Shown piece by piece: positions 2,710 through 18,648 of a stretch of DNA of 64,000 nt. Each line of letters begins with the position of its first letter. Position 1 is the stretch's first letter. The DNA is from Paenibacillus sp. UNC451MF. Its GTDB lineage: Bacteria > Bacillota > Bacilli > Paenibacillales > NBRC-103111. Location of the stretch: the NCBI RefSeq assembly GCF_000686845.1, contig NZ_KK366026.1:1-64000 (forward strand), read 5' to 3'. Both the position numbers and the translations under genes were made by a program. The notes beneath the pieces are model-generated. The model saw only the letters and a program-made list of their open reading frames with translations, did not search any database and was not told where the DNA came from.

Positions 2710-3138
2710 CTATAAGCGAGACTTTCTAATGACTTGATTGATAACCTCCGAGAAAATAAGTCCAATGGCTATAGCACCCGAGATCATAAACGCCTTGGCT
2801 GCCAGCTGAACTGCAAGATCGTATTGATTTTCAACAATATTACGCATCGCATCATAAGCCAGTCCCCCCGGAACGAGAGGGATAATGCCCGAGACGCTAA
2901 AGATGATGATCGGGGTTTTATATATTTTGGCTAAAAATTGGCTGATCACCGTAACGAAAAAGGCGGCGACTAAGCTCGAAACGATCGGATTGGCAGACAC
3001 TTTCATGCATGAAATGTAAAGCAGCCACCCCATCATGCCTACAAATCCACATTGCAGTAAATTACTCTTAGGTACGTTAAATATAATGCCAAAGGCTGCA
3101 GAAGCGATGAAGCTGGTTACCAGCTGTTCTATGATCAA
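2710..3138 (-). CDS. threonine/serine exporter family protein, small subunit (YjjB-like)
   Basis: A 142-residue membrane protein of the ThrE_2 (DUF3815, YjjB) family. It has about four hydrophobic segments and the family feature GIIPLVPGG near residues 84-92. In this family YjjB-type and YjjP-type halves together make a Thr/Ser efflux carrier; the actual substrate (amino acid or dicarboxylate) is not known here. The start is probably TTG at 3138, since AGGAGG lies ten bases upstream and no ATG is better placed. It follows the YjjP-like gene by about 50 bases on the same strand, so the two are almost certainly one operon. Confidence 0.85.
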   Translation of the reverse strand: MIIEQLVTSFIASAAFGIIFNVPKSNLLQCGFVGMMGWLLYISCMKVSANPIVSSLVAAFFVTVISQFLAKIYKTPIIIFSVSGIIPLVPGGLAYDAMRNIVENQYDLAVQLAAKAFMISGAIAIGLIFSEVINQVIRKSRL

Positions 3139-3188
3139 GGTTGCGAAACCTCCTGTAGGTATGTTAATTAACCGGACAACCTGCTGCT

Positions 3189-3944
3189 TCAGTAAAGAGC
3201 TATGACAAGAGCAATCCCTGCCCCGATAGCGAATGCCGTTAAGAGAGCTTCCGCCCCTTTGGACAATCCGGAGACTAGATGACCCGCCATTAAGTCACGA
3301 ACGGCATTAGTAATCAGAAGACCCGGAACCAGCGGCATGACAGAACCGATAATGATTGTGTCCAGCTGGTGACCTATGCCCTGCTTAACGAATAAAAAAG
3401 ACATCGCACCAATCATTAACGACGCTAAAAATTCGGCAAAGAACTTGATTTCGATCCACCGCTGAATATATATGAGGAATAAGAAGCCACACCCACCGGA
3501 GATGATTGCCGGCAGCACATCCTGCCATATCCCCTGAAACATGATAAGGAAGCAACCGCTGGCCAAAGCCGCCGCCGCTACTTGTACCCATACCGGATAA
3601 GCGATTCTGGCCGCATCAATTTGTTTTAGCGCCTCATGAGCCTCCGTAGCCGACAGCTCTCCTGCACTTATTTTTCTGGAAATATCGTTAACGAGAGCCA
3701 CCTTCCGCAGGTCGGTAGACCGCTCCATAATACGAATCAAACGAGTCATCGGTTCGGTTCCATCAATCGAGAAAAATATCCCCGTAGGAGTCACATAACT
3801 ATGAGAATTGTCCACTCCGAGTGCCGCTGCGATACGCATCATCGTATCTTCTACCCGGTAGGTCTCTCCGCCGCTTTGCAGCATGATTTTCCCGGCCAGC
3901 AGGCAGATTTGCGTAATTTCAAAATGTTGCTTCGATGGCTCCAT
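3189..3944 (-). CDS. threonine/serine exporter family protein, large subunit (YjjP-like)
   Basis: A 251-residue protein of the ThrE (DUF1212, YjjP) family. A cytoplasmic N-terminal half of about 115 residues, with GGETYRVEDTMMRI near residue 25 and TPTGIFFS near 55, is followed by about five membrane segments including VMPLVPGLLITNAVRD near 205, the counterpart of the PLVPG motif in the downstream gene. It is the first gene of a two-gene exporter operon. ATG at 3944 is preferred because GGGGGAG lies seven bases upstream; a TTG one codon earlier is possible. It is separated from the TOMM cluster by that cluster's terminator. Confidence 0.87.
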   Translation of the reverse strand: MEPSKQHFEITQICLLAGKIMLQSGGETYRVEDTMMRIAAALGVDNSHSYVTPTGIFFSIDGTEPMTRLIRIMERSTDLRKVALVNDISRKISAGELSATEAHEALKQIDAARIAYPVWVQVAAAALASGCFLIMFQGIWQDVLPAIISGGCGFLFLIYIQRWIEIKFFAEFLASLMIGAMSFLFVKQGIGHQLDTIIIGSVMPLVPGLLITNAVRDLMAGHLVSGLSKGAEALLTAFAIGAGIALVIALY

Positions 3945-4123
3945 CAAGCTTCTCCCCCGGAATGTGTTTGCAATTTCGACTGTTCTCAGTATTCCTAATT
4001 TTGTAACTTTATAAAGAAAACGCTACGGCTTCGTAAGCCTTTCAGTTCCAAAGCCTCCCATGTCTCCAATGTAACGCAAAATGTAAGAAAAGCATAGTGG
4101 ATGACAGCAAGATTCTGGTTGAA

Positions 4124-4196: not shown

Positions 4197-5786
4197 TTAG
4201 CCATGCAAGCCTGCCGTCAAACGAGGACTAGGGCGATAAGGGCCGACAGGAATTTGGATCAAGCTGCATAGTCCCTTCTCTGATATCCCATAAATGCTGT
4301 CGCTCAACCTGGTATCATATCCGAGCAGCGGATGGCCCCCTAACCCGAGAGCGGATGCCGTCAACAGCAGCCGCTGCACGAGCATTCCCGCCTCCATCTG
4401 CTGTATCCTGAAGCCTCTGTAGCCAAGCGCTGCTGCAAGATGCCGTCTATCTCCCGCCACATGAAAGCAGAGCGGAACCTGAAGCACATTCACATTGTCG
4501 GCGGGCATTCCCTGCTGTATCCATAGCCGCTGATCACCGCTCCGTGCCAGCTGCAGTGTGTGCTTCGCTCCGTCGTAACCATAAGCTCCGTCCGGCAGGT
4601 CTTCCACCTTATGTGTACATACATGCAGCGATACACGTGGTAACGCATGCTCACTGGAAAAGTCCAGATCATTCTGGTAAGCAAAAGAAGCCACGGTCTC
4701 CCTCAGCAGTATGGCAAGCTCTTGTCTGCTCACTTCACCGAATATAAAATCACCGTCCGGCGAATAACGATTCCGGCTCACTGCTGCAAAATCGTACGTT
4801 AGCCGCTCCGGGGAAGGCAACGACATGGATCTTTCTTCCCCGAAGATCGAAGTCCTACCTGTTGCAAAAGGGAGCAAGGGCTCTATAGAGTTAAGCATTG
4901 CGGCCTCATTCATCTCAAGCAGCAGCGGAAATGGTTGGATCGTGCGCGACCGCACATAGTGCACATGCTGCAATGTAGGAAGCTCCCGACTTAGTGAGGA
5001 GGAGACATCAAGCCGCTCCCGGGTTTCATTCATGCCGGGTGCATTAAACCATGCGGCTGCAGGCTTCGCTGACAGCGCAATCGCTGCATACACGCTTTCT
5101 TCCTGTTCCGATAAGCCCAACAGATGGTTTACCGCCCGGTCCAAAAACCTGAAGCACACACCGGCATCGTAACCATAACGTTTGGCTGCTTCCAGCAGCT
5201 GGCCGATCATTGCCCCCGCATCCAAACCCTGCAAACGGTAGGAAAAACTGCTGTATTTAAAAAGGTTTTTCCAAAACATAGCCGTCACGAAGACAACCGC
5301 GAAGCATTCTTCTACATCACAAGAATAGCCCAGCGCACGCTTTAAATAACTGTCAAAGCAGCCTTCGCGAAGCTGCACGAGACGATGATGGGCCGCGTCG
5401 TAATGGTACACTCCCTTAGACAGCCCCTCGATATTCAAATACACGTAGCACTCATTTGGATACAACGCCCCTCCGGATGGGGCAAACCTGCGGTACATCT
5501 GGAACAAGTCTCGTTCCGACTCCTTACCAGGAAGAATGCAATGACTTAATTGCGCCAAACCGCAAGAATACCATAAAAAGTGGCCGAGAGTCTTGAGATC
5601 AGGAGGCTTCCTCTGCTTCATCCCCTCTGTTAGTGTCAATGGGATGTCGGCAGAAAGAGGCACAGCAGGTAAGCCACGGTAAAGCTTATAGGGAAGCGGT
5701 CCATCCTCCCAATCCACGACACGCTCCGGCGGCTTGGTTTTGTCGATGTCGTATAACAGATCGTACAAAAATGAGTCAAGGCTCAT
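4197..5786 (-). CDS. SagB-type azoline dehydrogenase with two nitroreductase domains
   Basis: Expected to oxidise thiazolines or oxazolines to aromatic azoles with FMN in maturation of the Cys-repeat peptide encoded at 9994. The 529-residue protein has two SagB/nitroreductase-like domains. The first (about 40-265) contains RRFAPSGGALYPNECYV, the family's phosphate-binding PSxGaLYP segment; the second (about 320-520) has an RNRYSPDGDF segment and the helix EAGMLVQRLLLTASALGLGGHPLLGYD. It is the last gene of the TOMM operon, 66 bases after the YcaO gene. ATG at 5786 is preferred over an upstream GTG because GGGGGGAAAAGG precedes it. Tandem domains are known in heterocycloanthracin-type clusters; whether both bind flavin cannot be seen. 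Confidence 0.85.
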   Translation of the reverse strand: MSLDSFLYDLLYDIDKTKPPERVVDWEDGPLPYKLYRGLPAVPLSADIPLTLTEGMKQRKPPDLKTLGHFLWYSCGLAQLSHCILPGKESERDLFQMYRRFAPSGGALYPNECYVYLNIEGLSKGVYHYDAAHHRLVQLREGCFDSYLKRALGYSCDVEECFAVVFVTAMFWKNLFKYSSFSYRLQGLDAGAMIGQLLEAAKRYGYDAGVCFRFLDRAVNHLLGLSEQEESVYAAIALSAKPAAAWFNAPGMNETRERLDVSSSLSRELPTLQHVHYVRSRTIQPFPLLLEMNEAAMLNSIEPLLPFATGRTSIFGEERSMSLPSPERLTYDFAAVSRNRYSPDGDFIFGEVSRQELAILLRETVASFAYQNDLDFSSEHALPRVSLHVCTHKVEDLPDGAYGYDGAKHTLQLARSGDQRLWIQQGMPADNVNVLQVPLCFHVAGDRRHLAAALGYRGFRIQQMEAGMLVQRLLLTASALGLGGHPLLGYDTRLSDSIYGISEKGLCSLIQIPVGPYRPSPRLTAGLHG

Positions 5787-5852
5787 CCTTTTCCCCCCGG
5801 TCAGAGCAAGATGGGTCACACATATTTATACTCATCGTGTCACCCGTTACGG

Positions 5853-7793
5853 CTACGGAAACGGGTGAGGATAGGGATTCAGTTGTTCAGGTGTTAACGT
5901 ATGCTTCGCATAGCCAAGCTGCACCGGCACCTTGAATATCCTTTCCAGCCCGGTTACACGAGTATAATGATGACCGAACGTCATCGGAAGCAAGCCCGGT
6001 ATCAGCACTTTGACGCAATAGAGTCCGTTGCGTTCGATTTCCGGAGCTGTCACATCCACTACGACTACATCAAGGTCGCAACGGCGAAACGCCTGAATGA
6101 TATCCTTCACATCCTCTGTCAGGTCAGCATGAACAGTCCTGCTCTTGAACTGTTCGTCGAACCTATGGAGCGGACGTTGGCCACCAAGCAAAAAATGCAG
6201 CCGCTCCTCAGCCTGCGGCAATCCGTACAGCAGAGCGTGGTCATCCATCGACCACACGAGTGAAGAGTCGTGAAGCATGCTCTCACACGCCTCCCGCTTC
6301 GCCTCCAACTTCGAATCCAGATTAATCACCATCCCTGCCAATTCATGAAGGGAACCTTTGACAGCCCGGATGGGATCAAGGTGTGCTCCAGCGGCACAGA
6401 TGAGATTCATTCCACTTTGCTTGCGATTCTGCGCGACCCCCCACACGCTTGGAATTCCATGCTCCATCGTTGAATTAAAAAACCTTACGTCAAACCCAGA
6501 GATAGCCCGCAATCGTTCAACCATCCATAGCAGCTCCGTATCATCGGAAGAAGAGAGATCCAGCTCCGGAATAGGAAGACGGCCATACCAGGTCATCAGG
6601 AACGAGTCTCGCTCGACCACTTCCAATATGCCGTACAGAGCTGCTTCTACCAAGCTGCCACCCAACGCGCAGCCGTTAGACGATTCGAACACATAAGGAT
6701 TACCGGAAGTCATGCTGTAATACGCTAACTGCTCCGGAACCAAGATAGGACGCTCCTGCGTCAACGAATACCCCCAAACCCAAGAAAGCGAGGCTTCTGG
6801 ATCGAATGGCTTAAACGGGAAGCCATCCCGAGCATATTGCTCCTGCGAGTGAACCCCTACGGAGAACGGGTTCAGTGCATGATGGGACAGCTCCCTATAG
6901 CTGCCGCTAATGACTGTCCGTTTTGCCCGGGGCTCCAAGCTGGAGTACCGTTCAACGCCCTCCAATATAGCCGTGAAATGACTTAAATCAAATGAGTGTG
7001 TTCTTCCCGCAGTGCCTACGTCCTCATTTATTAACGGCAGGTTCACGCTGGCATCGGCAAAAGGCGAAACCAGATCGGTCATTTCCCCATTCAGCAGGCC
7101 GGTACGATAATCCAAATAATCGGCATTCAGAGTGTGCTTCAGGTCATTCATGGTTCGGGTACGATAGCTATCCGCACTTAGTTTGGGACATGGCTCTAGT
7201 ACAAGAAGCGCGGCTTCTGCAGTATCATCCGCAGCTAGACTGCAGAGCGGACAAAGCGAATCCGGTAGAACGAAATGGCGAGTGCATTCCAGCGTTGACA
7301 AGTTGAGCAATACGAGGCTGCCTTCCTTGTACTTCGAACTTAACAACATGCTCCTGATCTCAGCCCCGAGCAAATACGCAGCGTGCCGCAGCCCTGTTCG
7401 CGATGCCCATGCGTCGCCAGAAGAGCCTCCCGACTCCACCAATTGTGTCCGCAGCTGTGTCATTTCCCATCGCTCTTGTCCTGCACGGATTCGCCTCCGT
7501 TCAGCGCATTGGGAGCATCCGGGAACACCTGGGCGGACAAGGGGGCCCAGAACTGCATCTCCAAACGTTACAAAGCCTCCAAACCAAGGGATTCCAGCTG
7601 GCTGCAGTAATTCTTCTGTCCTAAGCTGAAGCGAAGGGTCCCAGCCATCGCTTAATACGATGACCAGCTGGGCAGCCTCAGGAATGCCGACTTCCCAATC
7701 CTCCTGCCGGGAGACCTCGAATTGGGATGCTAGATCCTTAGACACATAATCTGCCAGCTGTCCGGCACCTACTATGGTAACGACAGCGTTCAC
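5853..7793 (-). CDS. TOMM cyclodehydratase: leader-binding/ThiF-like domain fused to YcaO (SagD-type)
   Basis: The central heterocyclase, installing azolines by ATP-dependent cyclodehydration of Cys (or Ser/Thr). Residues 1-250 resemble the E1/ThiF-like domain of cyclodehydratases and carry two CxxC pairs, CSQC near 95 and CPLC near 180, probably a structural zinc site. Residues 265-646 are a YcaO domain with the ATP-binding helix AALYGILEVVERDSF, a later helix GSLHELAGM and the C-terminal PYPHPFP, matching the PxPxP tail important for YcaO activity. The GTG start overlaps the stop of the upstream gene (GTGA) and follows AGGAGGAGGTAGA, so translation is coupled. The 646-residue length fits fused TOMM cyclodehydratases. 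Confidence 0.93.
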   Translation of the reverse strand: MNAVVTIVGAGQLADYVSKDLASQFEVSRQEDWEVGIPEAAQLVIVLSDGWDPSLQLRTEELLQPAGIPWFGGFVTFGDAVLGPLVRPGVPGCSQCAERRRIRAGQERWEMTQLRTQLVESGGSSGDAWASRTGLRHAAYLLGAEIRSMLLSSKYKEGSLVLLNLSTLECTRHFVLPDSLCPLCSLAADDTAEAALLVLEPCPKLSADSYRTRTMNDLKHTLNADYLDYRTGLLNGEMTDLVSPFADASVNLPLINEDVGTAGRTHSFDLSHFTAILEGVERYSSLEPRAKRTVISGSYRELSHHALNPFSVGVHSQEQYARDGFPFKPFDPEASLSWVWGYSLTQERPILVPEQLAYYSMTSGNPYVFESSNGCALGGSLVEAALYGILEVVERDSFLMTWYGRLPIPELDLSSSDDTELLWMVERLRAISGFDVRFFNSTMEHGIPSVWGVAQNRKQSGMNLICAAGAHLDPIRAVKGSLHELAGMVINLDSKLEAKREACESMLHDSSLVWSMDDHALLYGLPQAEERLHFLLGGQRPLHRFDEQFKSRTVHADLTEDVKDIIQAFRRCDLDVVVVDVTAPEIERNGLYCVKVLIPGLLPMTFGHHYTRVTGLERIFKVPVQLGYAKHTLTPEQLNPYPHPFP

Positions 7794-9763
7794 TCTACCT
7801 CCTCCTCTCGCAGTACAACGCCGAATACTCCGGCAAGCTCTTCCTTCAGAAACGGCTCTACGGCCAGATTGAATACCTCAAGTCTCAATCCGTGGCTTTC
7901 CAATCCTTGCACTGCCGATTGCAGCAGATCCAACGGAACCGCTGTGCCGCTTGCAGCAATTTCAAGGCGAAGGGGTTCATTGGCTTCCACCCTGACGTAG
8001 GATGATTCCAGTGCTTGAGCGAGTGAATGCTCGATACCATTCTGCTCATACAGCAGTGCTTGCTGCAGTGCCCTGCGCAATGCGAAGGTCAAGTTCAAGC
8101 CGACGCCGGCAAACCAGCGTGAGTGATGACCTACCCAAGCTACGGGGAAACCGAATAGTTCCTCCCCTAGCCCAATGATTGGTGCGCCTTGTTTCACCGA
8201 CAGAGCTTGAAAATAAAACCGGCAGCGTGTATCGTCTATTCCCTCCAGCTGGACTAGGCGAATGGAGGGCATCTGCTCCTGATGTCGCCGAACCATTTCG
8301 GCAAGCAGCTGTTGATGCAATCCCCGCCCTACAGCTTCAGCTACCGTTTCGCCTGCTCCGATACTAACCTGATGGCTCGTTTTGCCAATGTTATTTTCTT
8401 CATCAAGCCGAACTGTCCATCTCTCAAGAAGATGCTCCGCCAACCGGGCTGCATATGCTTCCAAACCGGCTAACCCGGCTTCCCGCCTCGCCTCCTCATG
8501 CGTTAAGCCCGAACCTATCATTTCAGGGAGCAGCTCTGCAGGTCCTTCCGTTAATGGATCGACGGCCTGAACACAGCATTGAGCCAGCGGAAGCTGAATA
8601 AGCTCTTCTTCCTCCCACTTGTGCAAAATACCGGTATGTGAAGAAGTCAATCCGCTGAGATGGGACATCAATCGACTGTCCTCCTGCTCTAGGCTATCGT
8701 CTTGATCCAACGGGAGCTTTACTGCACCAGCTCCTTGCTCTAACATCGCCTCAGTCGCCAAAGGGTGTGGCCAATAGGAATGCCAGCGTCCTTCCAGGGT
8801 TTCTAAGTTCAACAAGTATAGCTGGCCGTTTCGCCCGGTCGGAGATACTCCTGTTATTTTTTTGAATAGCTCAAATACGAGCACGTTCACCAGCAGCGCC
8901 CCTGCCGTTGTGGAGAAAGCCTGTTGATCGTTCTTATTGCCCAGCACAGTAGAATGAATTCTACGCCAGGCTGACTCCCACCCGCCTTCAAGCTCAGGAT
9001 GGACGAGCGGGCCTGCAATACCCGTTTGCTGAACCATCATGGCGGGAGCAAACCATTTACCCTCTCTTCGGCAAGCCTCATGTATTGTCTTAAGCTCCTG
9101 AACGTCCTCCTCTCTGGATACGTAAGCGACAATGTCATAGGATTGAAGCGTTTCTCGCCAGAAATCCGTCTCTCCCTCCGGCTGAGATAACTCCATAACT
9201 TCAAGTGCCACCTCGGAATCGTTCTGGAGGGCATGCCCGGCTAGCTCCATCAATCTTTCTCGATCTGTAGGCTCTGTTGTTGTTAGCAGCACATGAAGCT
9301 TAGGTAAGCCTGATTCCAGCAGAGCGGCCAATAGCGAGACCATCAATGGCCCTGAACCGACCGCTAGCAGCCGGGTTCCACGATAGCTTTGAAACCGATA
9401 ACCTCCCGAATGACCGAGCTGATCTAAAAATTCGATCTGCGAAGCGTACCTGAGGGCTACAGCTTCAGGCAATTCATGGGGAAGATCCGTGCTTACATCC
9501 CGAACGAAGCCGTTGTCATACAACACTTGCGCAATATCGTACATTTGTTTCATGTAGGCATCAGGCAGCCCATCACTTAATTCGTCCATCGTATATTCGC
9601 CGTTGAACACCGGGAGCAGCCGCTCAACCCACTGATCGATCATATTGCCCTCTATGCGAAATGAGCTCACATTGTTGCGAAAATACACACTGCCTTGGGG
9701 CTCAGGAAGAAAAAAAGTGTCCCTCTTCACTTTGAGACGCATTGAAGGATGAATTTGACTCAT
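7790..9763 (-). CDS. thiazole-containing bacteriocin maturation protein (RRE plus ThiF-like)
   Basis: A 657-residue protein matching the 'putative thiazole-containing bacteriocin maturation protein' family found with heterocycloanthracin. Residues 1-90 have the look of a RiPP recognition element: GSVYFRNNVSSFRIEG, WVERLLPVFNGEYTM and VLYDNGFVRDVS. Residues about 115-330 form a ThiF/E1-like Rossmann region starting at TRLLAVGSGPLM; the rest is family-specific with no other domain recognised. It probably binds the leader peptide of the precursor and presents it to the YcaO enzyme. AAGGAGGGATAGT places the start at ATG 9763; an upstream in-frame ATG has no such site. It is the first enzyme gene after the precursor, and its stop overlaps the next gene. 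Confidence 0.9.
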   Translation of the reverse strand: MSQIHPSMRLKVKRDTFFLPEPQGSVYFRNNVSSFRIEGNMIDQWVERLLPVFNGEYTMDELSDGLPDAYMKQMYDIAQVLYDNGFVRDVSTDLPHELPEAVALRYASQIEFLDQLGHSGGYRFQSYRGTRLLAVGSGPLMVSLLAALLESGLPKLHVLLTTTEPTDRERLMELAGHALQNDSEVALEVMELSQPEGETDFWRETLQSYDIVAYVSREEDVQELKTIHEACRREGKWFAPAMMVQQTGIAGPLVHPELEGGWESAWRRIHSTVLGNKNDQQAFSTTAGALLVNVLVFELFKKITGVSPTGRNGQLYLLNLETLEGRWHSYWPHPLATEAMLEQGAGAVKLPLDQDDSLEQEDSRLMSHLSGLTSSHTGILHKWEEEELIQLPLAQCCVQAVDPLTEGPAELLPEMIGSGLTHEEARREAGLAGLEAYAARLAEHLLERWTVRLDEENNIGKTSHQVSIGAGETVAEAVGRGLHQQLLAEMVRRHQEQMPSIRLVQLEGIDDTRCRFYFQALSVKQGAPIIGLGEELFGFPVAWVGHHSRWFAGVGLNLTFALRRALQQALLYEQNGIEHSLAQALESSYVRVEANEPLRLEIAASGTAVPLDLLQSAVQGLESHGLRLEVFNLAVEPFLKEELAGVFGVVLREEEVE

Positions 9764-9860
9764 ACTATCCCTCCTTTGCACTTGGTTTTGCTCCGTATGC
9801 ATTACAAATTATTTTATGTATGCCTAGTTGTCCTTCATGTCACGTGAAAATGCCGGAAGA

Positions 9861-9904
9861 AGCAGAAAAGCCCCTGCATTCAAATGAATGTAAGGGCTTT
9901 TGCT
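9861..9904 (-). terminator. internal hairpin between TOMM precursor and enzyme genes
   Basis: On the minus strand AGCA-AAAGCCC pairs with GGGGCTTTT-CTGCT around an inner CATTC/GAATG stem, leaving a U-rich 3' side. It sits between the precursor stop (9994) and the first enzyme start (9763). A leaky terminator or processing stem here would yield much more precursor than enzyme transcript, as is usual in RiPP operons. Confidence 0.55.
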
Positions 9905-9993
9905 GCGGAGCATTCGGTTCCTTTCATTATGCAGCCATGGGCGTACCGGTATGGCAGCGCCTTTTGGCGGTTAGCTTAATCGGAGACTTGCTC

Positions 9994-10293
9994 TTAACGA
10001 TGTCCTTGACCACCGCCATGATGGCAGTTATGACAGTTGTGGCAGTTGTGGCAATTATGATGACAGTTATGGCAGTTGTGGCAGTTGTGGCAGTGGTGGC
10101 AATTATGACAGTTATGGCAGTTATGACAATTGTGGCAGTTGTGACAGTTAAAACAGTTATGGCAATTAAAACAGTTATGACAATTTAAAAATGTACGATC
10201 GCTTTGTTGGTCCGTTACCTTCCAGGAATTCACCTCTCCGGCTTTCAAATCGGAAACATTCAGCTTTTGTAAATCCTTTTTAAAATCACCCAT
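9994..10293 (-). CDS. TOMM precursor peptide with Cys-His-Asn repeat core
   Basis: A 99-residue peptide. Residues 1-36 form a leader-like segment beginning MGDFKKDLQKLNVSDLKAGE, recalling heterocycloanthracin/sonorensin leaders (this comparison is from memory). Residues 37-92 are a near-perfect three-residue repeat with 18 Cys, mostly N-C-H with three Phe or extra-His variants, and the tail is GGGQGHR. There is no Ser or Thr in the repeat, so only Cys can be cyclised. AGGCGGAGG lies nine bases before the ATG at 10293. The adjoining RRE/ThiF, YcaO and SagB genes on the same strand support the role. Known relatives have Cys-Xaa-Xaa cores rich in Gly; the His/Asn core is the oddity. The mature structure and activity are unknown. 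Confidence 0.88.
   Translation of the reverse strand: MGDFKKDLQKLNVSDLKAGEVNSWKVTDQQSDRTFLNCHNCFNCHNCFNCHNCHNCHNCHNCHNCHHCHNCHNCHNCHHNCHNCHNCHNCHHGGGQGHR
10018..10185 (-). repeat. 9-bp tandem repeat encoding (Asn-Cys-His)n
   Basis: Eighteen consecutive units of nine bases (minus-strand type AACTGCCAC/AACTGCCAT with synonymous changes) encode the precursor core. Codons vary between TGC and TGT and between CAC and CAT, so the amino-acid pattern is held more strictly than the DNA, which argues for selection on the peptide. The array could gain or lose units by slippage. Confidence 0.9.
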
Positions 10294-10490
10294 GTATATC
10301 ATCCTCCGCCTAGTTAATTATGCTGGCAGGATATACCGATACAGACCTTTATGCCTGCTCCATGTTCCGCCAACGTCATGAATACCCCATGACAACATAT
10401 GTAACGGATTCCGCTCTTGTTACTGATTTGGACACCTAATTTTTATGGTATAAGCCTACAGTGGTTAGACGTAATTGTTCTTGCAAACAA

Positions 10491-10703: not shown

Positions 10704-11351
10704 CTAAGATTTTTTGCTGCGGCTTTGCCCTGATCTGTGGCCGCCCTGACCTTGTCCGTGACCGCCCTGGCTTCCACCGTGACCTCCTTGACCTCCCCAG
10801 TGGCCTCCTTGTCCGCCACCATGTCCGCCGTGGCCTCCACCATGTCCGCCTTGGCCTCCCCAGTGGCCTCCTTGTCCTCCGCCATGTCCGCCGTGGCCTC
10901 CACCGTGACCTCCACCGTGACCTCCACCGTGACCCCCACCGTGGCCTCCATGTCCGCCTTGGCCTCCCCAGTGGCCTCCACCGTGACCTCCATGTCCGCC
11001 TTGACCTCCCCAGTGGCCTCCACCGTGACCTCCATGTCCACCATGGCCTCCCCAGTGGCCTCCGCCTTGACCCGGCCACATGCCGCCCCCGCCTTGACCC
11101 GGCCACATGCCGCCCCCGCCTTGACCCGGCCACATGCCGCCTCCGCCTTGACCCGGCCACATGCCGCCCCCGCCTTGACCCGGCCACATGCCGCCTCCGC
11201 CTTGACCCGGCCACATGCCGCCTCCGCCTTGACCTGGCCACATGCCGCCTCCGCCTTGACCTGGCATCATGCCACCTCCGCCTTGGCCTGGCCACATGCC
11301 GCTACCTTCTTGACCTGGCCACATTTGGAAAGAGCGTTTATTTTTACTCAT
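10704..11351 (-). CDS. Gly/His/Trp-rich tandem-repeat protein, function unknown
   Basis: A 215-residue protein with no recognisable enzyme domain. After MSKNKRSFQ come about nine units of a nine-residue repeat of the type MWPGQGGGG (to about residue 95), then units of the type HWGGQGGHGGHGGG that make the C-terminal half rich in His and Gly, ending in SRSKKS. There is no Cys, signal peptide or membrane segment. GAGAGGGATGGGATGAT precedes the ATG. Several frames stay open across the repeat; this one is chosen for its ribosome binding site and coherent repeat. A sigma-K-like -10 upstream and the composition suggest a spore-coat or metal-binding protein. It lies upstream of the TOMM precursor on the same strand, but a link is only inferred. 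Confidence 0.7.
   Translation of the reverse strand: MSKNKRSFQMWPGQEGSGMWPGQGGGGMMPGQGGGGMWPGQGGGGMWPGQGGGGMWPGQGGGGMWPGQGGGGMWPGQGGGGMWPGQGGGGMWPGQGGGHWGGHGGHGGHGGGHWGGQGGHGGHGGGHWGGQGGHGGHGGGHGGGHGGGHGGGHGGHGGGQGGHWGGQGGHGGGHGGHGGGQGGHWGGQGGHGGSQGGHGQGQGGHRSGQSRSKKS
10770..11335 (-). repeat. two blocks of coding tandem repeats (27-bp and about 42-bp units)
   Basis: From about 11060 to 11335 a 27-bp unit recurs almost identically, encoding MWPGQGGGG; from about 10770 to 11060 degenerate units encode HWGGQGGHGGHGGG-like sequence. The near identity of the 27-bp units points to recent expansion or gene conversion. Confidence 0.85.
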
Positions 11352-13491: not shown

Positions 13492-13639
13492 TCGGCTTTC
13501 TGTGGCATCCAATTTACTTTGAGGGGAGGAATGAGAACCACATCGTCTTGTCCCGTGTAAAACAGTTGCTTTAAGTCATATTCATGGTTTCACAGAAGTA
13601 CAACCCTAATTATACCTATCCTAAGGAGTGTGTTTATTC

Positions 13640-14044
13640 ATGAAATTATCATTCAAAAAATCGTTTTCCATGATGCTTTTGGTGTTTATGCTTGCTCTTG
13701 CTTTCGCAATTCCAGCTTCCGCTGCCAGCCAATCCTATGAATTCTATTACAATGGCAGCGCGACTTCTCCTTATAATGCTCACGTGAATCCGTTCATTGT
13801 TGGCCCTGCTGACGTAACTGGCACTTCCGTTACAATTACATTGGACGACGAATATTATGGCTACCTGCAAGCTGACAATGGTTCCGGTACCTTCGTAACT
13901 GCTACGCAAGGTCTGGATGCAAACGGCGATACAACGTTCACTTTCACTAACTCCAACCCATCCAACGATATTAATGTAAAACTATTTGTTGAAGTTCCTG
14001 GCCAACACTCCGCTCTTTATCCTTTAACTATTCACTGGAACTAA
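13640..14044 (+). CDS. small secreted single-NEAT-domain protein (hemophore-like)
   Basis: A 134-residue protein with a signal peptide (KKSFSMMLLVFMLALAFA, cleavage near ASA-A) and one domain of about 105 residues with NEAT-like features: NPFIVGPADVTGTSVTITL at the N-terminal strands and LFVEVPGQHSALYPLTIHW at the end. The end corresponds to the haem-binding YxxxY strand of NEAT domains, here HSALY, so the first Tyr is His. No anchor is seen, so it is probably released and could carry haem to the surface protein encoded next. ATG at 13640 follows AAGGAG by 11 bases. It is first behind the Fur box. The NEAT assignment is by pattern only. Confidence 0.7.
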   Translation: MKLSFKKSFSMMLLVFMLALAFAIPASAASQSYEFYYNGSATSPYNAHVNPFIVGPADVTGTSVTITLDDEYYGYLQADNGSGTFVTATQGLDANGDTTFTFTNSNPSNDINVKLFVEVPGQHSALYPLTIHWN

Positions 14045-14079
14045 TCGTTTAGCTTAACCCAATAAAATTATTGCCCTAG

Positions 14080-14114
14080 CGAAAAGTGGTCTTACCAGAC
14101 TGCTTTTCGTTTTG
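14080..14114 (+). terminator. hairpin between the two NEAT genes
   Basis: CGAAAAGTGGTCT-TACC-AGACTGCTTTTCG with two wobble pairs is followed by TTTTGG, about 35 bases after the small NEAT gene. It is probably a partial terminator that allows more of the secreted protein than of the large surface protein. Confidence 0.6.
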
Positions 14115-14153
14115 GCATTTGGTCCAGGACCGAGAAGAAGGAGTGTACATAAA

Positions 14154-17100
14154 GTGTTAAAAAGCAATTTGAAGCAGTCCATAGCCTTTTGCCTTTCTTT
14201 GGCATTATTTCTATCTTCTTTATTTACAGCCTTGCACTTCCATGTAACGCCAGCCGAGGCGGCCGTAACGCTCCCGGATAATGTGTACCAGGTTAGCTAC
14301 CTGTATGTGAAGGACGGTACCAGCAGCGATTCCGCTGCAAATCTGTATTTATCCGTTCATAATTCAGGCAAGCTTATCGTTCAGAATGGCAAGATCACAT
14401 TTGAGCATGAAATAACCCCTCAATATTACGGGTATTTCCAATATCTCGCTTTTCGTAATCCAGGGGCAGCTAAGGCGGTTATTAACACTTCAACCAATAC
14501 AGCTCAAGGAACGGAAGGCTATACGCTCTTCCCTGTTCGACCCGCCAACAACGGCACCGGTAATTTGATTACTACGATTCATATTGAAGATATTACAAAA
14601 AAACAAGACGTGCTTATGCATGTCGTTATTAAGGATGCTCCCGAATTCGGCAACGGTTTTCATTATGATTATTGGTACAATGTTCAGTTGGACATTAATA
14701 CGAAGGATCTGCCTTTGGAAGGCAATAACGGTGGAAATACGGGCGGTGAGACCGAACAACCGATAACGCTCGCTTCATTACAGGAGCTAGTGTCCGTCTC
14801 CAAGTCAGTGTACCAAAGCACATATGAAGGAACCAGTCTGGGAGACGCACCAGCAGGGACCATGCTTCCGTTCTATACCAAGATCGTTCAAGCGGAAAAT
14901 TTCATAGCAACCGGAAATACCTCACCTGAGGCAATCAAGGCTGCCTTTAATGAATTGACAGCAGCTCTGAATACCTTTCAATCCTCAAGATATTCATCGG
15001 ATAAGCGGGTTCTTGCTTCCTTAATAGCAGTAGTAACCGAATTCAGAGACGGAATTAAAGAGATTGGTTATACAGACGATCAGCTTGGCTCCTCTCTCGC
15101 CCCTGCTTCACCAGGAGAGTTCATAGTAGGTCCCAAAGTCAGTTTATCGACCCAAATTGAGCGTGCGCAAACCGTGTACAATGAGCCCAAGTCTACGCAA
15201 GCTGAAGTGGACAATGCTGTGAGAATATTGACCGGAGAATATAACTCTGTTAAGGATTCGTACTACATCATCAGCGATGATTCGGTAAGAGTGATTGCTC
15301 TGGATTCGCTTAATCCGACGAACGTTCCTTCAGTTAATGCGCCGGAAATCTCAGGTACAGCCTCGTTTACTACACTTAAAGGAGCGGATCTTGGTACAAG
15401 AGCCAACATTACCTTTAACACCTCTTCTGCGATCACTGATGTGATGCAGCCGAATGTTTCCAGTAATGGCGGCTACACTGCAGTGGAGTATCGCACTCCT
15501 CAGTTCATCAAGAGCTCTAACGGACAGACAAAGGTGTTTCAGGCAACCATCCGAAGATCAAATGTTAACGAGGATACCAAATGGCTGGGACAATCGTATC
15601 TCCGCTACAAACTCGACGGTGTGACCAAGGTCGTTTACCTCAGCTTCAACGCTGACCAGCTTGATGCATTAAATGCGTCTGCTGAAGCTGCGCAAACGCT
15701 ATCCGAATCCGCTACAGCCTTACCGGGAGCGGAATCAGCTTATAGCACTGCCAAGACTGCGCTGCAAAGTAAAATCGATGCAGCGAAAGGCACAGCCCAG
15801 AATTTAGCAAGCACCCGGCCTCAAATCAATACAGCCAGTACGGCACTGCAGCAAGCGGTGGATACTTTTAAAGTAAGTGCAGCCTATCCGCTATACTTCA
15901 CCACCACCCATGCAACAAGCGATACGTTCTCTGCTGTAGAAAGCTACTTTTTGAAACCGGCTACCGTTACGACAGAGGGCGGCGCTGTTTATGTGTCTTT
16001 TACAATAAAAGATAGCGCGGTCATTAAGGAATTCCAAGTTAAGACTGGCGGTCAATATGTGGATGCAGCTGTCGTTAGCGAGAATACAACGGATAATACG
16101 AGAGTTGTCAAATTTAAAGCAGATAGTCTGTCAGCTCTGCTCGACGCTAAGGTGCACATCTCCATTCCTGCACAAAATTATGACCGCACGCATGATATCC
16201 GTCTGAATCTGAATAATGTGGATAATAGCGCTCTGGCACAAGCGGTTGCGGATGCGAACACACTTTACCGGACGTCGGTAGCCGGCACTGAGCCTGGCCA
16301 ATATCCGCAAGCTTCCAAAGCGGCCCTTCAGTCAGCGATCAATACCGCAGGTGCGGAAGCAACGCGCTTAACAGGCACAACCGAACGGACGGCTGCTGCT
16401 TTGCAAACGTTACAGCAGGCTGTGAATGCGTTTAAAGCATCTGTCATTGTAGAACCGACGAATCCGGGGACGATTAAGGACGGCGAGTATCCTATCGGCT
16501 TTACGATCTATAAGAAAGGCACCGACGAGAAATCGGTTATGTATGATTATGTCGATCCACAAAGCGGTAAGCTAACCGTAATTGGCGGTAAAAAGTACGT
16601 AACATTTACAGTTAAGCAGAATGCCGAAATCAAATCGTTCAAAACCGAACGCAACGGCGTCTTGACTGAAACTGAGACGGTTAGCACTGATGCCGCCGCC
16701 AATACCCGTATCGTTAAGTTTGAAGTAACAGACCTTGAAGCTCGTTTAAACGGATGGGTCAAAATTTATTGGGTGCTTCCCGCTCCAATCGGTATTTATG
16801 ACCATGAATATGAAGTAGAGCTAGGATTTGATTTCCAGCTGCCAACAGCAGCAGATAAGTCGCAGCTAACAGCTGCAATAGACAATGCCAAAGCCAAGCT
16901 GGCCGCAGCCGTTGAAGGCAGCTCCGCCGGACAATACGCCATAGGCTCCAAGGCTGTATTGCAAACAGCTATTACTGCGTCTGCAGCCGTAATAGATAGC
17001 TCTTCGGCTACGCAGCAGGCCGTCGACGAAGCATTGAAGGCTTTGAAAAAATCAGTTGCTATTTTCCTTGCATCCGTCACATTGGCAGACGCCAATTACA

Positions 17101-18500
17101 GCTTCAACTGGCCGTCTACAATCAAGGATGGAGCCGGCACGCCGATGACGAACTTCATCTTATCTGGCGCGAGCATGAAAGTGAGCGGTGGGAAGCAAGT
17201 AGTCACCCTCCAGCTCGTTAGTGGCGTTACATTCAAAAAGCTTCAAATGAAAAAAGCAGACGGCGCTCTTGAGGATGTTTCAACGGTTGCCGCCGCCAAG
17301 CAAGCAGGCATTGTTAAAGTTTTAGATACTAGCAGCGCAGCTGCATCTGTTAACTTTGAAATCAAGGACCGCTCGGCAGTATATGTGCTTAGCCTATCGG
17401 ATGCTGCGCAAACAGAGCATGCCTTCGAAATTGATTTCTCCGAGATCAGTCTGTCACCGGTAACGGATCCAGGAACCGATAACGGCTCCGGTAAAGGAAG
17501 CTCCGGTCGCGGTGGCGGCGGCGGTGCAGCAGTCATAATCAAGCCACTGGCTGAAACACTTGAAGCTGGGAAGTATACCATCGATTATGCTCTATATTCC
17601 CGGGGAACAGCCCAGACTTCAGTTGCAGACCCATTCGTCAAGCATCCAGCCAAGCTGGAAATTGCAGACGGCAAGAGCTACATCTTATGGACGGTATCAG
17701 GTAAAGAGGTTACCGGGCTAAAGGTGACGGATACGAGCGGTGCTTGGACCGATGCTCAAGTTGTTGCAGCAAATGACAAACTGAATGAACAAACCGTACG
17801 ATTCGAAATTCAGAATGCGCAAACCAAAGTTCTAACCCAGTTCAAATTGTCAGTTCCCGACAAATACAATGGGGAATATGAGGCGGACATCGTATTTAAC
17901 GAAGCCAGCATTCAACAAGACAAAAGCTCAACCGATATTCCAAGCCAACCTGATGGGAACGCAGCCATCACGGATGTACAAAATCACTGGGCTCAAGCCT
18001 CCATCGAGCAAGCGGTAGCCTTGGGAATCGTAAACGGGTACGAAGACGGTACCTTCCGTCCAGACTCGAATATCAACCGCGCAGAGTTTATTACGCTGCT
18101 GAACAAGGCTCTTAAGCTCGGACAAAGCTCTAACGAGCTCAGCTTTACCGATTCGGCAACCATTCCTCAGTGGGTGAAACCGTATCTTTCACCGGTTGTA
18201 GAGGCAGGAATCATTACCGGGTATGAGGATGGCGCTTTCCGGGCTGATCGCCAAATCAGCCGGGCAGAATTGGCCGTCATTATCGTTCGAGGCATGAAAC
18301 TGAAGGTGGATGCCGATGCCCGTGCCAGCTTCTCGGATGCGGACAGCATACCTCAATGGGCGCAAGCAGAAGTAGCAGCTGCGCATAACCAGGGTATCAT
18401 TAGCGGTCGCGATAACAATCGGTTCGAACCTACACAGAATGCAACGCGCGCTGAAGCCGTATATCTTATTTTGTCTCTTTACAAAGCAGCTCATCAATAA
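14154..18500 (+). CDS. S-layer-anchored multi-NEAT-domain haem-binding surface protein
   Basis: A 1448-residue protein. It has a signal peptide (cleavage near AEA-A, residue 37), about six NEAT-like domains separated by helical FIVAR-like spacers, a Gly/Ser linker near residue 1120, and three SLH domains (about 1270-1448; HWAQASIEQAVALGIVNGYEDGTF is the first motif). NEAT-type terminal strands are YDYWY (domain 1), YDRTH (domain 3), YDHEY (domain 4) and YNGEY (domain 6); YxxxY is the haem-iron motif, so domains 1, 4 and 6 look competent, while domains 2 and 5 lack it. GTG at 14154 follows AGAAGGAG; the TTG farther upstream falls in the preceding hairpin. Likely role: haem capture at the S-layer under Fur control. 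No membrane haem transporter lies nearby. Confidence 0.88.
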   Translation: MLKSNLKQSIAFCLSLALFLSSLFTALHFHVTPAEAAVTLPDNVYQVSYLYVKDGTSSDSAANLYLSVHNSGKLIVQNGKITFEHEITPQYYGYFQYLAFRNPGAAKAVINTSTNTAQGTEGYTLFPVRPANNGTGNLITTIHIEDITKKQDVLMHVVIKDAPEFGNGFHYDYWYNVQLDINTKDLPLEGNNGGNTGGETEQPITLASLQELVSVSKSVYQSTYEGTSLGDAPAGTMLPFYTKIVQAENFIATGNTSPEAIKAAFNELTAALNTFQSSRYSSDKRVLASLIAVVTEFRDGIKEIGYTDDQLGSSLAPASPGEFIVGPKVSLSTQIERAQTVYNEPKSTQAEVDNAVRILTGEYNSVKDSYYIISDDSVRVIALDSLNPTNVPSVNAPEISGTASFTTLKGADLGTRANITFNTSSAITDVMQPNVSSNGGYTAVEYRTPQFIKSSNGQTKVFQATIRRSNVNEDTKWLGQSYLRYKLDGVTKVVYLSFNADQLDALNASAEAAQTLSESATALPGAESAYSTAKTALQSKIDAAKGTAQNLASTRPQINTASTALQQAVDTFKVSAAYPLYFTTTHATSDTFSAVESYFLKPATVTTEGGAVYVSFTIKDSAVIKEFQVKTGGQYVDAAVVSENTTDNTRVVKFKADSLSALLDAKVHISIPAQNYDRTHDIRLNLNNVDNSALAQAVADANTLYRTSVAGTEPGQYPQASKAALQSAINTAGAEATRLTGTTERTAAALQTLQQAVNAFKASVIVEPTNPGTIKDGEYPIGFTIYKKGTDEKSVMYDYVDPQSGKLTVIGGKKYVTFTVKQNAEIKSFKTERNGVLTETETVSTDAAANTRIVKFEVTDLEARLNGWVKIYWVLPAPIGIYDHEYEVELGFDFQLPTAADKSQLTAAIDNAKAKLAAAVEGSSAGQYAIGSKAVLQTAITASAAVIDSSSATQQAVDEALKALKKSVAIFLASVTLADANYSFNWPSTIKDGAGTPMTNFILSGASMKVSGGKQVVTLQLVSGVTFKKLQMKKADGALEDVSTVAAAKQAGIVKVLDTSSAAASVNFEIKDRSAVYVLSLSDAAQTEHAFEIDFSEISLSPVTDPGTDNGSGKGSSGRGGGGGAAVIIKPLAETLEAGKYTIDYALYSRGTAQTSVADPFVKHPAKLEIADGKSYILWTVSGKEVTGLKVTDTSGAWTDAQVVAANDKLNEQTVRFEIQNAQTKVLTQFKLSVPDKYNGEYEADIVFNEASIQQDKSSTDIPSQPDGNAAITDVQNHWAQASIEQAVALGIVNGYEDGTFRPDSNINRAEFITLLNKALKLGQSSNELSFTDSATIPQWVKPYLSPVVEAGIITGYEDGAFRADRQISRAELAVIIVRGMKLKVDADARASFSDADSIPQWAQAEVAAAHNQGIISGRDNNRFEPTQNATRAEAVYLILSLYKAAHQ

Positions 18501-18509
18501 AGAATGTTT

Positions 18510-18545
18510 AAGCCGGGCGGCCATCTAAGATGGCTTGCCCGGCTT
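18510..18545 (+). terminator. terminator of the NEAT-SLH gene
   Basis: AAGCCGGGC...GCCAT-CTAAG-ATGGC...GCCCGGCTT forms a long stem followed by ATCTTTTTA. Confidence 0.85.
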
Positions 18546-18648
18546 ATCTTTTTACTCGTGCCTTATGTCCGTATCCACCATCTTGTTGAATACTTCAAAT
18601 CCTGCTATCTTTAAAGCAAAAGATCATGAAATCGGAGAGACAAATAAT

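Follow-up and report, generated by a model that had tools for sequence, protein, structure and literature searches.

A histidine-rich, heterocycloanthracin-type precursor peptide of Paenibacillus sp. UNC451MF with a SigK/GerE-like control region

What is a peptide for when its core repeats Cys-His-Asn almost without interruption and its gene stands beside those of azole-forming enzymes, and when would the cell make it? The question is raised by a short minus-strand ORF in the window, that is, the whole stretch of 64,000 nt from Paenibacillus sp. UNC451MF analysed here. In our reading, the peptide is probably a His-rich azole peptide that belongs to the heterocycloanthracin (HCA) family and is expressed in the mother cell at a late stage, the product then being deposited on the spore or set free when the cell lyses. 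The features on which this reading is built are collected in Table 1.

Table 1. Features of the precursor, its control region and the adjoining enzyme genes in the window
Feature	Position	Strand	Basis
TIGR03601-type precursor peptide gene, 99 aa	9994..10293	-	ORF, profile match, residue counts
Precursor leader, 37 aa, without Cys	10183..10293	-	residue count; invariant positions with four relatives
Precursor core, 62 aa, 18 Cys, 13 exact CHN units	9997..10182	-	residue count
Shine-Dalgarno GGAGG	10303..10307	-	read from sequence
SigK-like -10, CATATGTTG	10393..10401	-	8/9 identical to the bclA -10 in PMC4750369
Conserved AGTAACAAGAGCGGA containing SigK-like -35 (AC)	10410..10424	-	upstream alignment, pattern scans
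GerE-like box, AATTAGGTGTCC	10430..10441	-	exact match to the consensus
Second conserved element, ACATGAAGGACAA-N-ACATA, before F gene	9815..9840	-	pattern scans
Possible terminator/attenuator hairpin, precursor-F interval	9866..9901	-	by eye; not among program-reported sites
F protein (TIGR03693), N-terminal leader-binding domain	7790..9763	-	673.8 bits; structure match
Fused cyclodehydratase (TIGR03882 + YcaO TIGR03604)	5853..7793	-	profile and structure matches
SagB-type dehydrogenase, two TIGR03605 stretches	4197..5819	-	202.7 bits

Two start codons are available to the precursor, at 10302 (MIYMGDF) and at 10293 (MGDF), the second being preferred since GGAGG sits 9 nt ahead of it and the upstream ATG overlaps this motif. 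Besides its Cys, the core contains 20 His and 16 Asn, and it can be divided into 18 units (13 CHN, 2 CFN, one CHH, one CHHN and a C-terminal CHH tail), with a Cys-Cys spacing of three residues in 16 of the 17 intervals and of four in the other. A sequence-only reading of this DNA, whose coordinates agree with the start at 10293, had described 18 Cys in a strict three-residue C-H-N period; the number of Cys holds, the strictness does not. The core DNA is a diverged 9/18/27-bp tandem array. When its 16 three-residue units are compared with their own consensus, 17 synonymous and 5 non-synonymous differences are found, as the earlier claim of synonymous codon drift had implied, and 3 of the 27 single changes possible in the consensus are synonymous. 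The probability of at least 17 synonymous changes in 22 lies between 9e-13 and 1e-6 for transition weights of 1 to 8, to be taken as a rough guide only, because the repeat units are not independent. Selection thus appears to act on the repeat at the level of the peptide. In its own genome the precursor ORF matches nothing but itself. A plus-strand ORF over the same DNA (9742-10188) was set aside, since the leader homology, the enzymes and the upstream element all fit the minus strand.

Among NCBIfam models the precursor matches TIGR03601 (heterocycloanthracin/sonorensin) and no other; its score of 34.0 bits (E 3.3e-8) falls one bit short of the cut-off of 35, which a CHN relative (L038) clears at 38.1 bits. 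The gene order is precursor-F-YcaO-SagB, and each of the three enzyme genes scores above its family cut-off, the cyclodehydratase reaching 414.9 bits with TIGR03604 and 124.4 bits with TIGR03882; this is the gene set published for the HCA family (PMC4603692, PMC7470986). Residues 12-90 of the F protein match the leader-binding domain of PbtF (8t19; E 3.7e-7), and the YcaO part can be aligned with LynD and TruD up to their C-termini. According to the chemistry of the family, F would bind the leader, YcaO would close the X-Cys amides, mostly Asn-Cys, to thiazolines, and SagB would oxidise these to up to 18 thiazoles, mostly with His-Asn between them. Within the genus, TIGR03693 and TIGR03601 both exceed their cut-offs in 12 of 13 genomes, and the source genome holds three precursor loci. 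Nine genus genomes also encode a second F-like protein (L019-L027; L025 in the source genome), with a TIGR03693 match starting at profile position 126-131 and without the N-terminal leader-binding part; elsewhere, L157 has an additional YcaO gene (16696-18588, plus strand) that shares 55% identity with that of the window and is separated by about 6 kb from the cassette of class N (defined below).

Of the systems described before, heterocycloanthracin from the Bacillus cereus group shares the TIGR03601 leader, a Cys-X-X core with tripeptide indels, and F, fused YcaO and SagB (PMC2674419). Its core, however, is built of CGG instead of CHN, and in B. anthracis and B. cereus the precursor lies far from the cassette, whereas that of the window adjoins it; the B. 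licheniformis precursor, of the same family and also next to its maturation genes, consists largely of Cys-Trp-Ser triplets (PMC2674419). The earlier statement that known cores are dominated by Gly fits the published CGG and CWS triplets and is correct in part only. Sonorensin belongs to the same family, and antibacterial activity has been reported for it (PMC4544038). The leader-binding domain is shared with PbtF, a thiopeptide F protein, and F-dependent cyclodehydratases are common to HCA and most thiopeptide clusters (PMC4603692); unlike these clusters, the window has a linear, repetitive core, and F, YcaO and SagB are its only common neighbours. The account of heterocycloanthracin in PMC2674419 makes no mention of sporulation control. 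In the literature searched, which fell short of most subscription journals, neither a CHN core nor a tie between HCA and a sporulation promoter was found, and the window peptide would be new as a CHN/His-rich form of a family which is itself already known.

For a wider comparison, 69 distinct precursors were recovered by regular expression from the collected loci (matches in 59 of 104 family genomes, genus loci and named contigs of an exact CHN scan), a set in which CHN types are somewhat over-sampled because the contigs of that scan are included, and from which the expression missed, among others, L043, L108, L110 and L112. Class N, defined as having at least 30% of the Cys preceded by Asn, comprises 28 of the 69, the remaining 41 lying outside it. 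The scan of genome contigs for CHNCHNCHNC returned 31 loci, of which 18, by our own reading, have a Paenibacillus leader of HCA type and the other 13 lack one; a one-off CHN core is thereby ruled out. By tblastn, F, YcaO and SagB were present in all 20 class-N contexts fetched besides the window, the ORF-based neighbour count having missed F in one context and SagB in two. The sequence-only reading, which had taken the ORF for a TOMM precursor beside its maturation genes, is borne out on this point, the precursor being of TOMM/LAP type, and the search it had proposed, for precursors with C-H-N repeats next to YcaO genes, does find them. A tree built from 42 F proteins groups 20 of the 21 class-N rows with a support of 90/94 (not starred) and pairs the window with RC67 at 100/100. 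Among these sequences, CHN cores make up a Paenibacillaceae subclass. Class-N cores typically carry CFN, hydrophobic, in front and CHN behind: over successive core terciles the residue after Cys is His in fractions of 0.12, 0.43 and 0.74, and hydrophobic in fractions of 0.72, 0.25 and 0.06. The window core is His-rich throughout. The window core follows the order general to the family, hydrophobic residues first and basic residues last, with His occupying nearly all of its length.

This leaves the time at which the peptide is made, on which the DNA upstream of the precursor bears; this SigK/GerE-like control region is absent from the sequence-only reading. When the upstream DNA of 21 class-N precursors is aligned, a block of about 60 nt is better conserved than its flanks. 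The SigK-promoter-like element AGTAACAAnnGCGGA-N-CATA, counted wherever no more than 4 positions differ from AGTAACAAGNGCGGA, occurs in 66 of the 69 precursors, of all core types and often behind a GerE-like box, although such counts are not independent, since the promoter sequences are related by descent; L044, L100 and L101 are without it (6 mismatches each). In all 66, CATA follows AC by 16 or 17 nt, mostly by 17, one more than in bclA; the -10 reads CATATGTTG in 27 and CATAAATTG in 14, and the element lies 70-214 nt from the start codon. The full consensus RWWTRGGYNNYY, which we take to be the GerE-binding site, stands within about 25 nt upstream in 38 of the 66 (mean 0.15 and maximum 2 in 500 shuffles) and is lacking in 28; no occurrence of this string was found in the literature searched.

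In the window, AC-N17-CATATGTTG occupies 10424-10393, the gap being 14 nt with AACAA as the -35, and the last base of the consensus CATANNNTA is unmatched. With AC in the -35, a CATA-type -10 and a gap in keeping with the 14-16 nt that separate the 5-nt from the 10-nt element in B. subtilis SigK promoters (PMC517825), the window promoter fits the SigK type. Moreover, its -10 resembles that of the B. thuringiensis bclA promoter (CAC-N16-CATATGTTA), the activity of which drops in a sigK mutant (PMC4750369); both have AC at the -35, and a GerE-like box stands upstream. GerE was reported to bind the bclB promoter and not that of bclA (PMC4750369). In most HCA precursors, in contrast to bclA, AC and CATA are 17 and not 16 nt apart, and an extra GCGGA is conserved. 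This GCGGA, between the SigK-like -35 and -10, is nearly constant in Paenibacillaceae precursors and lies outside the described SigK promoter; a further regulator may bind it, as neither SigK nor GerE accounts for it. The likeness of the window to SigK/GerE-controlled spore-surface genes such as bclA and bclB lies in promoter sequence. The exact pattern GTAACANNNGCGGA-N4-8-CATA has 16 sites in the 13 genus genomes, all 16 before HCA precursors, and the reversed control pattern has none, the genus variants G002:C42 and G010 and the element-less L044 (G005:C11) being missed by it; a longer class-N pattern (at most 3 mismatches) has a single site in the source genome, that of the window. Two other candidates were discarded, namely a SigA-type promoter, of which both predicted sites lie inside core DNA at chance level (2 found, 1.8 expected), and a structured RNA leader, for which RNAalifold predicted no fold when 17 elements, each 60 nt long, were analysed together (0.0; z 0.48 relative to shuffled columns).

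The source genome encodes a GerE ortholog, a 74-aa ORF matching 1FSE (E 1.9e-31). HCA-type precursor matches are found in 67 of 398 genomes of the class, and a GerE match (E 1e-20) in 64 of these 67 as against 183 of the 331 HCA-negative genomes, a comparison confounded by phylogeny. Three HCA-positive genomes are without a GerE match (G186, G208, G230) and six have a weak one (G267, G339, G352, G369, G387, G457), which may reflect split or diverged gerE genes, or fragmentation. Upstream of 25 precursors from the best class-level loci, a SigK-like match was found in 8 and a GerE-like match in 12 (shuffled means 1.5 and 1.6). The joint motif, a GerE box followed by AC-N15-18-CATA, was found upstream of 17 class-level precursors out of 60, against a mean of 0.02 and a maximum of 1 in shuffled DNA, and was absent from the other 43. 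These 60, a few mis-parsed ORFs included, are those with enough upstream DNA among 61 distinct precursors from 70 class-level loci, themselves part of all matches in the 67 genomes. In the family set, of which a stricter parser kept 52 upstreams, the joint motif was found in 28. All loci collected contain 61 distinct matches to it, 41 in precursor upstreams and 20 elsewhere; 17 of these 20 bear the AGTAACAA-GCGGA element (by eye), the other three being L004 (plus strand), L206 and L253.

A second element precedes the enzyme genes. GGACAA-N6-12-CATA stands ahead of F in 20 of 21 class-N loci, and ACATGANGGACAA-N5-10-ACATA has 8 sites in 5 of the 13 genus genomes, 7 of them immediately before F genes, so that the enzymes would be transcribed from a conserved promoter of their own. 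GGACAA resembles what we take to be a SpoIIID site, from which it would follow, by a weaker step, that the enzymes too are mother-cell products.

Taking these elements together, SigK, in this case from a promoter with a GerE-like box, would drive the precursor at a late stage in the mother cell, and we consider such late expression likely. A control region like that of late spore genes suggests a role of the peptide in or around the spore. Since the mother cell lyses, a dedicated exporter would be unnecessary, and late expression with release by lysis would account for the missing common exporter. The product could be laid on the spore, for which the chances seem nearly even, or freed at lysis as an antimicrobial, a plausible but somewhat weaker prospect, the first being rated slightly above the second. 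A bolder extension, rather doubtful at present, is that the HCA family as a whole is primarily developmental and not bacteriocinogenic, its members being SigK/GerE-controlled mother-cell polyazoles that are incorporated into the coat or exosporium of the spore or attached to it, where they might act as a UV screen, a cross-linker or a metal-holding layer, with the CHN subclass as its His-rich, metal-capable form. HCA-type precursors are common and are named bacteriocins, though the literature consulted describes few studied products. The SigK/GerE-type element, found across several core types, points to sporulating cells and spores, not growing cultures. With this clue as to timing, the purpose of HCA peptides can be put to a direct test, which could bring to light a spore-surface material of a new kind, and the CHN core would offer chemistry an unusually regular Thz-His-Asn template.

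The best-surviving rival is an ordinary bacteriocin, in which the matured polyazole kills competitors, is membrane-active through its hydrophobic-to-basic gradient, and has its release timed with lysis by the late promoter. The family name and the activity of sonorensin (PMC2674419; PMC4544038), reported to damage bacterial membranes (PMC4544038), speak for it, as do the raised HCA genes reported for B. cereus biofilm cells (PMC6962202) and the composition of the cores themselves, the last third being more basic than the first in 26 of the 28 precursors of class N and in 38 of the 41 outside it (where Arg is the leading basic residue). Nevertheless, most of the hydrophobic front has been lost from the window core, and no immunity or export gene is shared by more than 10 of the 21 class-N loci. 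In fact, no family but those of the three enzymes exceeds that count; the commonest non-enzyme family is found in 10 contexts and the others in at most 5, as counted without HMM annotation of these families, and a conserved exporter, immunity or metal gene was rejected on this basis. The bacteriocin is a credible, if minority, reading. The neighbourhood of RC67 is syntenic with the window, matching neighbours being 78-99.6% identical and the three enzymes 70-83%; the ThrE-like genes at 2710-3947 are kept there and are not among the families common to at least 3 of the 21 contexts.

The multidentate metal ligand put forward by the sequence-only reading fares less well. In the form considered here, each Thz-His unit would offer its azole nitrogen, a backbone amide and the imidazole to Cu or Zn, and the peptide would serve as a metallophore or as a metal store of the spore. 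The idea draws on the 20 His among the 62 core residues and on a core His fraction of 0.30-0.33 in three related precursors, those of the window, RC67 (L015) and P. doosanensis (L018), the next class-N core having 0.26. Against it, relatives swap His for Phe, Ser, Thr or Gln with the enzymes unchanged, and the cores of L135 and L152 contain no CHN unit at all. The L135 core is served by the same enzyme cassette, seen complete in L167, and His is therefore not needed by the enzymes; a different precursor adjoining the same enzymes, named beforehand as evidence against the idea, was in this way found in part. Moreover, the enzymes alone recur in more than 10 of the 21 loci, no metal gene was recognised near the precursor among the window ORFs scanned (nine against NCBIfam, six against Pfam), and the same scans found no maturation enzymes of the methanobactin or bufferin type. 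The literature searched also yielded nothing that brings thiazole, YcaO, copper and metallophore together. As a general account, the metal ligand is therefore improbable; metal binding stays conceivable for the His-only group of the window, RC67 and P. doosanensis.

It is still less probable that the core acts unmodified, as a disulfide-cross-linked, Cys/His-rich spore-surface protein, the adjacent enzymes having another target. The spore-type promoter would suit such a protein, but precursor, F, YcaO and SagB are adjacent in 20 of 20 contexts, the N-terminus is of leader type, and an HCA cyclodehydratase has been reconstituted in vitro (PMC4603692). Lastly, a spurious low-complexity ORF, as the tandem DNA array might suggest, was rejected, given the synonymous excess among units and the fact that many species share the leader, the upstream element and the order of the genes.

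Some observations on the surroundings of the precursor may be added. On the plus strand, at 13628-18500, two ORFs resemble cell-surface proteins with heme-type NEAT repeats, the match being sub-threshold (E 0.038) in the 138-aa ORF that was scanned. Directly upstream of the precursor, on the same strand, a 215-residue repeat ORF (10704-11351) carries MWPGQGGGG and GGH/GGHWGGQ repeats, with 117 Gly and 23 His, and CATAGTCTA is located 46 nt ahead of its start; it may be a further spore-surface protein, the counterpart repeats of which are split over two frames in RC67 (L092). Two CHN precursors, L084 and L086, end in a GGGH-repeat tail like the Gly/His repeats of this neighbouring ORF.
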